64,000 bases of DNA from Jiangella alba (GTDB lineage Bacteria; Actinomycetota; Actinomycetes; Jiangellales; Jiangellaceae), in contig NZ_FNUC01000004.1 of the NCBI RefSeq assembly GCF_900106035.1, positions 2,542,001-2,606,000 of the forward strand, read 5' to 3'. A program made the translations under genes and the position numbers. Below are positions 37,930-39,540 of this stretch, in pieces. Every line of letters starts with the position of its first letter. Positions within the stretch are counted from its first letter, which is position 1. The notes beneath the pieces were generated by a model. That model saw nothing but the letters and a program-made list of their open reading frames with translations, was not told the origin of the DNA and ran no database searches.

Positions 37930-38415
37930 ATGGTGAGTCCCATCCCTGGTCTTCCCACCGGCATCGTCGTCGGCAGCTACGACGACTACCCCGCGGCACA
38001 GAAGGCGGTCGACTACCTGGCCGACCAGAAGTTCCCCGTTGAGAACCTGGCCATCGTCGGCAGCGACCTCCGTCAGGTCGAGCGCGTCACCGGGCGGTTG
38101 TCGTGGGGCAAGGCGGCCCTCGGCGGCCTCGCCACCGGTGCCTGGCTGGGCCTGTTCGTCGGTCTCCTCCTCGGCCTGTTCACCGACGAGGGCTGGCTGG
38201 CGATCATCCTGCTCAGCGTGCTGTGGGGCGCCATCTTCATGATGATCTTCGGGCTGGTCGGCTACGCGCTGACCGGCGGCCGCCGCGACTTCACGTCCCA
38301 GAGCGTCACCGTGGCCGGCCGCTACGAGGTCTACTGCCAGCACCAGCACGCCGAGGAAGCGCGCAACCTGCTCGCCCGGCTCTCGTTGCAGACCGGCACC
38401 GGCACCGTCTCTTAG
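37930..38415 (+). CDS. YflT-like general stress protein, membrane-associated
   Basis: 161 residues, AGGAGG upstream. N-terminal IVVGSYDDYPAAQKAVDYLADQ and NLAIVGSDLRQVERVTGRL match the YflT/heat-induced stress domain; two hydrophobic helices (about residues 64-83 and 90-115) follow, then a short C-terminal region. Function unknown beyond stress association. The stop codon TAG (38413-38415) lies inside the terminal repeat of a palindromic element, and the last codon TCT is rare for this genome, so the original C-terminus may have been altered. Confidence 0.82.
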   Translation: MVSPIPGLPTGIVVGSYDDYPAAQKAVDYLADQKFPVENLAIVGSDLRQVERVTGRLSWGKAALGGLATGAWLGLFVGLLLGLFTDEGWLAIILLSVLWGAIFMMIFGLVGYALTGGRRDFTSQSVTVAGRYEVYCQHQHAEEARNLLARLSLQTGTGTVS

Positions 38416-38578
38416 GGTGTGTCTCCCGGGTCCGTGGCCTACTGCGCGACGCCCAGGCGGCGCCTCGCGGCGTTCTCGTCAGTCGTCATAGAACCCCGCT
38501 ATGACTCCTTCCTCGGCCTTGCGAGGCATCCACCTGGACGCCGCTCGCTACGGCCGAGACCCGGGAGACACACCCTAA
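38412..38578. repeat. 167-bp palindromic element with perfect 21-bp terminal inverted repeats
   Basis: The ends 38412-38432 and 38558-38578 are perfect inverted repeats beginning TTAGGGTGTGTCTCCC. The arms stay imperfectly complementary (about 70 percent by eye) to a central stem GTCATAG / CTATGAC (38485-38491, 38499-38505) whose loop is the exact centre of the element. Both outer ends contribute TAG stops to the convergent genes. No coding potential or transposase. MITE-like, REPIN-like or a bidirectional terminator are the options. Confidence 0.85.
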
Positions 38579-39540
38579 AGCCAGTCGCGCCGCTTGAAGT
38601 TGACGTAGAGCATCCAGCACAACGCCGCCATCAGCAGCATCACGCCGGGGTAGCCGAGCCTCCAGTGCAGTTCGGGCATGTGGCGGAAGTTCATGCCGTA
38701 GATGCCGGCGATCGCCGTGGGCACCGCCACGATCGCCGCCCACGACGTGATCTTGCGCATGTCGTTGTTCTGCGCCACGGACAGCTGCGCCAGGTTCGCC
38801 TGCAGCATCGAGCTGATGATCTCGTCGTAGCCGCCCAGCTGCGCGTGCAGCCGGTCGACGTGGTCGCCGACGCCGCGGAAGTAGGTCTGCACCTTCGGCG
38901 CCACGAGGTCCGGCGCCCGCTGCGTCAGCGACCGCACCGGCAGCCCCAGCGGCGCGATGGCCCGCTGCAGCTTCAGCAACTCCCGCTTGGCGTGGTAGAT
39001 GCGGCCCGCCTGGTTGCCGCTGACCTCGTCGAACACGGCCGCCTCGATCTCGGTGAGGTCGGCCTCGAACGCCTCCGCCACCTCGACGTACTCGTCGACG
39101 GTGGAGTCGGCGGCCACGTACAGCACGGCGGCCGGGCCGTGGCCGAGCAGCTTCGGCCGGCTCTCCAACTGCTCCGCGACGGCCTGGACGGGATCCGGGT
39201 CGCCCTCGCTGACGCTGACGACGACGTCCGGCCCGGCCAGCATCGTCAGCCGCCCGGCGTCGCGCACTCCGCCGTCGTACCGGACCCTGCGCAGCACCAG
39301 GTAGACCAGGCCGTCGTAGTGGCCGATCTTGGTGCCCTGCCGCGGGTCCAGCGCGTCCTCGACGGCCAGCGGGTGCAGGCCGAAGTCGGACGCGATGCCG
39401 CGCAGTTCGTCCTCGTCCGGCTCGTGCAGCCGGATCCAGACGAAACCCTGCCGCCGGCGTGCCTGCGCGACGGCGTCGTCGTAGTCCTGACCGGCCTGCC
39501 GCCGGCCGTCGCGGTAGAACGCCCACTCGGTCATGGTCAC
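38575..39540 (-). CDS. corA: CorA-family magnesium/cobalt transporter
   Basis: 321 residues. A long cytoplasmic alpha/beta funnel domain (1-255), then two C-terminal membrane helices flanking the selectivity motif YGMNF (about residue 278), ending with the basic KRRDWL typical of CorA. Homopentameric divalent-cation channel. Its stop TAG falls inside the palindromic element and the last sense codon is CTT, unusual here. Confidence 0.92.
   Translation of the reverse strand: MTMTEWAFYRDGRRQAGQDYDDAVAQARRRQGFVWIRLHEPDEDELRGIASDFGLHPLAVEDALDPRQGTKIGHYDGLVYLVLRRVRYDGGVRDAGRLTMLAGPDVVVSVSEGDPDPVQAVAEQLESRPKLLGHGPAAVLYVAADSTVDEYVEVAEAFEADLTEIEAAVFDEVSGNQAGRIYHAKRELLKLQRAIAPLGLPVRSLTQRAPDLVAPKVQTYFRGVGDHVDRLHAQLGGYDEIISSMLQANLAQLSVAQNNDMRKITSWAAIVAVPTAIAGIYGMNFRHMPELHWRLGYPGVMLLMAALCWMLYVNFKRRDWL

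Follow-up and report, generated by a model that had tools for sequence, protein, structure and literature searches.

The convergent genes for a YflT-like protein and for CorA are separated, in the window analysed here (a stretch of 64,000 nucleotides of Jiangella alba DNA, from the genome designated G000), by a 161-bp MITE that was very probably moved in trans by a transposase of the IS5/IS427 group and inserted silently into a site shared by both stop codons, recreating the two TAGs. In the mechanism that we propose, an IS5-family transposase of the IS427 group would target CTAG, perhaps also TTAA, and duplicate the central TA, and the insertion site would have been the four bases in which the stops of the two convergent genes overlapped. 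With an element whose first base is G and whose last base is C, TA plus G would remake TAG on each strand and both protein ends would be kept. The insertion would be silent at the protein level because the TA is duplicated and the G/C ends of the element recreate TAG on both strands, and insertions at stops would survive, since they do no coding harm and come to lie downstream of the genes. The features of the locus are collected in the table.

Re-measuring the locus reproduced the geometry that an earlier note on this DNA had described: 167 bp (38412-38578) symmetric about position 38495, with perfect 21-bp ends (38412-38432 and 38558-38578) and a central 7-bp stem. In this stem, 38485-38491 pair with 38499-38505 around a 7-nt loop centred on 38495. 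The source of the symmetry is a 161-bp element that sits between two copies of TA. The palindrome folds at -99.7 kcal/mol; 200 dinucleotide shuffles average -64.2 (sd 4.2), which puts it at z -8.4, far beyond chance. ORF coordinates place both TAG stops at matching positions of the two ends, as had been claimed, and the codons before them, TCT (Ser) and CTT (Leu), are indeed odd: in all eight relatives with an empty site, the base that precedes TAG is C in either gene. In the nearest of these, G009, the codons are TCC and CTC, so that both codon changes in G000 are synonymous against it.

Table. Features of the MITE insertion and of the facing genes (positions in the window)
Feature	Position	Strand	Basis or remark
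YflT-like gene	37930..38415	+	left TAG (38413-38415) is its stop; PF11181, E 4.7e-24
Left copy of duplicated target TA	38413..38414	.	with G38415 forms the TAG stop of the YflT-like gene; empty sites
MITE, 161 bp, imperfect palindrome	38415..38575	.	repeat copies; boundaries from 71 copies of 7 Jiangella genomes and from empty sites
Left terminal inverted repeat, GGGTGTGTCTCCCGGGTC	38415..38432	+	end-locating over 71 copies
Inner core common to other element families with different terminal repeats	38445..38546	+	matches in other actinobacteria
Putative core helix, left strand CCTCGC, pairing with 38521-38526	38463..38468	+	covariation, 35 elements
Conserved strand GCGTTCTCGTCA; bases 3, 6, 9 and 12 can pair with the opposite strand	38470..38481	+	core alignment
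Apical hairpin, 7-bp stem, 7-nt loop	38485..38505	+	folding
Conserved strand CTTCCTCGGCCTT, opposite 38470-38481	38508..38520	+	core alignment
Putative core helix, right strand GCGAGG	38521..38526	+	covariation, 35 elements
Right terminal inverted repeat, perfect match to the left one	38558..38575	-	end-locating over 71 copies
Right copy of duplicated target TA	38576..38577	.	with C38575 forms the minus-strand TAG stop of corA; empty sites
corA	38575..39540	-	right TAG (38577-38575) is its stop; CorA PF01544, E 7.1e-54

The history of the site is visible in the relatives. Among the 12 Jiangella genomes in which we compared the locus, the element is present in two (G000 and G010), and eight of the ten element-free genomes (G002, G004-G009 and G011) have an empty site in which both stops overlap in one CTAG; in one of these, G006, corA is broken further inside. 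The other two element-free genomes carry short inserts here, of about 30 bp with similar ends in G003 and of 8 bp in G001. G000, G010 and the empty relative G009 agree in the last residues of both proteins, GTGTVS in the YflT-like protein and FKRRDWL in CorA; the final WL of CorA is common to all 12 genomes, and GTGTVS is also found in G004 and differs by a few residues in other, more distant relatives. That an element had landed here, as the earlier note suspected, is supported by the empty CTAG site in relatives, the duplication of TA and the many copies in the genome. Its further suggestion that both gene ends had been rewritten has to be given up: the comparison of C-termini and gap in element-free strains, which it had called for, revealed a shared CTAG and the same last residues as in the nearest empty relative, and since the stops already overlapped in CTAG in eight of the ten element-free genomes, the insertion restored both rather than replacing them.

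The flanks of the element in G000 and G010 read TTA...TAA rather than CTA...TAG, with T and A as outer bases in place of C and G. Either the target was already TTAA in the lineage of these two genomes, or two C-to-T changes followed the insertion; whichever history applies, the duplicated TA together with the first element base, G on both strands, gives each gene its TAG back.

The element belongs to a repeat family. The 7.68-Mb genome G000 contains 16 full-length places at 94-100% identity, the window copy included and one other identical to it, as well as shortened forms of the MITE. A 12-base end pattern, allowing at most one mismatch, gave 51 matches in G000 versus nine for the reversed control, and a search of 60 genomes found matches to the element at E<=0.001 in 24. 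The end of the element, which the earlier note had proposed to look for, hence recurs in the genome and in relatives, and the single-copy case is ruled out. The element is repeated, short, devoid of a transposase gene and bounded by terminal inverted repeats, as expected of a MITE, and a target-site duplication with an empty site was found with TA here and with CTAG, in at least one relative, for five of 12 other copies queried (L016, L188, L002, L210 and L234). At the sites of L002 and L188, a further relative differed in sequence. The relatives' sites were not CTAG for a further five of the 12 (L008, L005, L003, L013 and L229), and no spanning site was retrieved for L207 and L228.

Element boundaries and flanks were determined from 71 full-length copies retrieved from seven Jiangella genomes (G000 16, G010 17, G008 11, G009 10, G011 10, G007 4 and G004 3), which are a subset of what those genomes contain; the set excludes short deletion forms (L198-L200) and two long variants (L222 and L223). 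The long variants, at G009:C4 and G009:C8, are about 270-286 bp long and have several CGATCAGGTGACG-type inverted repeat copies in their centre. The outer triplets of the 142 ends are CTA in 75 cases, CCA in 18 and TTA in ten, with others making up the remainder. CCA, the commonest after CTA, differs from it by a single T-to-C change, which removes both the CTAG and the stop, as a bias against CTAG might do. Intact CTA...TAG flanks, which all ten copies retrieved from G011 possess, are absent in 42 of the 71 copies, and 26 of those 42 have neither end used as a stop. The window copy, with its TTA...TAA flanks, is not among the 29 intact-flank copies.

Given that the element lacks a transposase gene, its mobiliser has to be sought elsewhere, and the genus offers candidates. 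G001 and G010 contain ISs of the IS5 family, IS427 type, with ends such as GGGCGTGTCTCCTAAGTC, GGGTGTGTCTCCCATAT and GGGAGTGTCTGACGGATC; they start with GGGxGTGTCT and are nearly always located in C/TA...TA/G, where the slashes mark the borders of the duplicated TA. Their ORFs carry DUF4096 and DDE_Tnp_1 domains (both ORFs tested on one IS, L179), and with the 2-bp TA repeat and the GGG-type ends this marks the ISs of G001 and G010 as candidate mobilisers of the IS5/IS427 kind. The left terminal repeat of the MITE is similar to, though not identical with, these IS ends. A direct connection is provided by an 87-bp hybrid in G011, flanked by CTA and TAG, of which one side is the right end of the G001 IS (60/62 bases) and the other a MITE end. 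An IS with exactly the terminal repeat of the MITE was not found in our searches, and G000 gave no match to PF13340, to PF13359 or, at the DNA level, to the G001 IS; PF13359 matched in G008 only (four loci). None of nine end-pattern matches examined outside the full-length copies of G000 had a second matching end at IS distance, and one of them, L053, is a short form. The earlier note's proposal of mobilisation in trans is well supported by the combination of these results, namely that no matching transposase was found in G000, that ISs of the genus have similar ends and the same target, and that a hybrid element exists; the transposase that moved the window copy would presumably have been of this group. 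A second MITE family in G000 (L020, L023, L025 and L027) has ends like those of a 1019-bp IS5/IS427-type IS of G010.

The closest known systems include the IS5/IS427 ISs and the MITEs derived from them, which the Jiangella MITE resembles in its terminal repeats (GGGxGTGTCT), the CTAG target, the 2-bp TA duplication and, as regards the autonomous relatives, the DUF4096/DDE transposase ORFs. In contrast, none of the ISs examined contains its inner core: eight cores gave no BLAST match at 1e-3 to 32 IS loci, and the MITE is therefore not a simple deletion derivative of those ISs. Excerpted descriptions of the IS5/IS427 group report 2-bp repeats for most members, and two overlapping ORFs (PMC3281130), and the excerpts of another account (PMC9241763) describe a mycobacterial IS that belongs to the IS5 group and whose repeats are CTAG.

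The use of element ends as stop codons is widespread. According to a codon-usage score for which 32 long ORFs from the window served as training set, and which is not a gene caller, at least one end TAG is used as a stop in 41 of the 71 copies (42 in a repeat run over all copies), and both ends are so used in eight. Among the copies with intact flanks, an end serves as a gene stop in 25 of 29 (15/19 without G011), as compared with 21/88 control CTAG sites in 400 kb of G000 and 10/45 in 240 kb of G008 (Fisher p 2.9e-9 against the G000 control and 3.1e-10 against both); a second version of the test gave 23/29 intact-flank copies and 18/86 control sites. Bare TA sites yield no usable control count, since insertion into a Tyr codon also creates TAG. 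CTAG itself is about ten times rarer in G000 than base composition predicts, with 93 occurrences in 400 kb (L241-L260) against 974 expected from base composition and about 303 from trinucleotides. It rarely lies inside genes (5/88 by one test, 8/86 by another), although 62 of the 88 control sites are neither at a stop nor in a detected gene and some of these may belong to undetected genes.

Autonomous ISs with the same target behave differently: 3/16 are located at stops, versus 25/29 MITE copies (Fisher p 1.2e-5), in a small sample that comes from G001 and G010 only, and thus from different genomes. This sample consists of 14 of the 30 loci of the PF13340 search plus L311 and L312, and leaves out the L151 and L165 groups, L177 and others; one of the three stop-located ISs, L173, is borderline with a score of 10.2. 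The contrast makes it less likely that the transposase itself favours stop codons, and we read the concentration of the MITE at stops as survival after insertion, not targeting.

Two insertions instead of one would also account for the presence of the element in both G000 and G010, if the stop site were a hotspot that had been hit separately in each lineage. We consider this less likely than a single insertion, though it is the likeliest of the alternatives. The two copies differ at five positions, of which four are mirrored between the terminal repeats as two pairs, as separate arrivals of different copies could explain, and the remnant-like short insert of G003, with similar ends at the same site, points in the same direction. 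So does the stop of one other gene, at which G008 (L210) and G011 (L230), two different species, have the element in opposite orientations. However, the unusual TTA...TAA flanks are common to G000 and G010, no other genome is closer to G000 here than G010 (96.4-96.9%), and the inner sequences of the two copies differ at one base. Mirrored changes also fit correction between the two arms, given that the end repeats of a copy generally agree: arms within a copy show 41/1260 mismatches, whereas shuffling the arms among copies gives a mean of 158 (the degraded L227 left out). The other two ortholog pairs seen on both flanks, L186/L225 and L191/L215, differ asymmetrically, which is counter to arm correction.

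It is improbable, in our assessment, that the palindrome is instead a bidirectional transcription terminator or 3'-end stabiliser that selection has kept between the genes. Such a role would agree with the very stable hairpin, with the tail-to-tail position and with the finding that genes converge on the element from both sides in 15/29 intact-flank copies as opposed to 9/86 control CTAG sites; the inner helix, moreover, does covary across the wider family described below. Yet the same positional bias is expected if insertions elsewhere are lost, and ten of the 12 Jiangella genomes do without the element at this locus. A simple intrinsic terminator, that is, a GC-rich hairpin followed by a U-tract, was rejected, as there is no U-tract and no terminator-like site in 38000-39000. 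Changes within the genus also argue against a terminator: among 63 distinct Jiangella copies, both-sided changes occur in 11/17 terminal pairs (73 cells) and in 0/32 inner stem pairs, where 13 one-sided and 20 broken cells were counted. Both-sided changes in the terminal repeats fit recognition of the ends by a transposase, or arm correction, better than they fit a kept inner RNA hairpin.

The remaining suggestion of the earlier note, fixation as a REPIN-like repeat, which would make the palindrome a REP/REPIN element spread by a RAYT transposase, captures its shortness, its many copies and its movement in trans and is nonetheless highly improbable in view of the TA duplication at the empty site (REP hairpins, to our knowledge, come without one), the IS5/IS427-type terminal inverted repeats and the 161-bp unit.

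Beyond the Jiangella MITE itself, its inner part leads to a larger set of elements. When a sample of 393 genomes of the class was searched with a 97-base core query, 52 matched at E<=0.001 (38 at E<=1e-6), eight of the 52 being Jiangella. In other actinobacteria, elements with a matching inner part have different ends, such as GTGTCGCGTGAGGG (L071) and GTGCCCCGTAAAGCC (L073), and further different ends on matching cores are AGAGGCCGCGCAGAATGGG (L334) and GTGGTCGGCGCCGG (L333); similar cores with clearly different terminal repeats often adjoin CTA or TTA. The loci of this wider family are L067-L077, L316-L355 and L357-L375, with unreliable end pairs in L340, L347, L319, L322 and L332 and in L341-L343 (masked bases). 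Two elements of G142 have identical inner parts (118/118), and their outer 22-base ends match at 16 and 19 of 22 positions. A search for the best hairpin found an apical stem of at least 4 bp in 44/44 elements, a few with large loops.

Covariation in these cores was assessed on a structure hand-written from motif anchors, and on the same sequences that provided the anchors. In 35 cores, picked from 44 anchored ones by thinning near-identical rows, the helix and four pairs three bases apart have 60 both-sided cells versus 18.5 in shuffles (0/500) and at most 17 in slid controls; two of the five measures were not above shuffles, namely the number of pairs with both-sided change (7 vs 6.3) and of further pair types (14 vs 14.4), and RNAalifold found almost no structure in the wide alignment. 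A search of 396 genomes drawn from the phylum with a model made from the cores gave matches in 18, G000 included. Eight of the 18 lie outside the class, five of these at E<=2e-5 (strict filters, rough E-values). Eighteen distinct model matches, in a model-fitted alignment, have 36 both-sided cells versus 10.6, and all five measures exceed nearly all shuffles. Among the model matches, L360, L367, L369 and L373 are without an anchored motif and L361, L371 and L372 have poor ends; the weakest, L371-L373, may be due to chance. Rfam gave no matches above the gathering score for 38300-38700 of the window or for seven loci holding related elements.

Judged from these comparisons, the core seems to change more slowly than the ends. 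Ends may be exchanged between elements, and the core may have a function. We tentatively put forward, at slightly less than an even chance, that the Jiangella MITE represents an undescribed family of mobile hairpins of about 165 bp, in and beyond the class, in which a structured, functional core would be retained and the ends would be exchanged to follow the available transposase. The core would then consist of a covarying helix, two conserved strands with G-C type pairs at every third base, and an apical hairpin in which the stem sequence varies and the pairing is kept. As the functional part, it could be, for example, a binding site or a fold that aids transposition or shields the host transcript.

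Small TA-targeting elements are known from other bacteria and include the Correia (NEMIS) elements. The RUP repeat, likewise short and with a TA target, is thought to be mobilised in trans by IS630-Spn1, according to excerpts of its description (PMC2229807). Compared with the RUP and Correia MITEs, the Jiangella element differs in transposase family, in sequence and in its actinobacterial host. Regarding stop codons, the closest parallel is found in pneumococcus with its BOX, RUP and SPRITE repeats: in the excerpted source, 36 of 58 genes that overlap BOX repeats have their stop codon encoded by the repeat, and repeats are over-represented between convergent genes (PMC3049150). In Jiangella, each strand regains its TAG at exactly the old position from the target plus the first element base, a feature that the excerpts do not describe for BOX. 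Among the matches listed from the open-licence literature, none described this MITE, the restoration of stops on both sides or the common core. We regard the MITE family as new, though of a kind already known, and the modular superfamily behind it as possibly new.

The insertion between the YflT-like gene and corA illustrates a simple route by which a mobile element can settle at gene borders without coding cost. One half of this route is a rare palindromic target that, in a GC-rich genome, is often a stop; the other half is provided by element ends that rebuild the target stop on both strands. This accounts for the matching TAGs of two convergent genes inside one palindrome, which an annotator could take for a designed terminator. 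Should the wider family prove real, one could also test whether small non-autonomous elements keep a functional core and swap their ends for new transposases.
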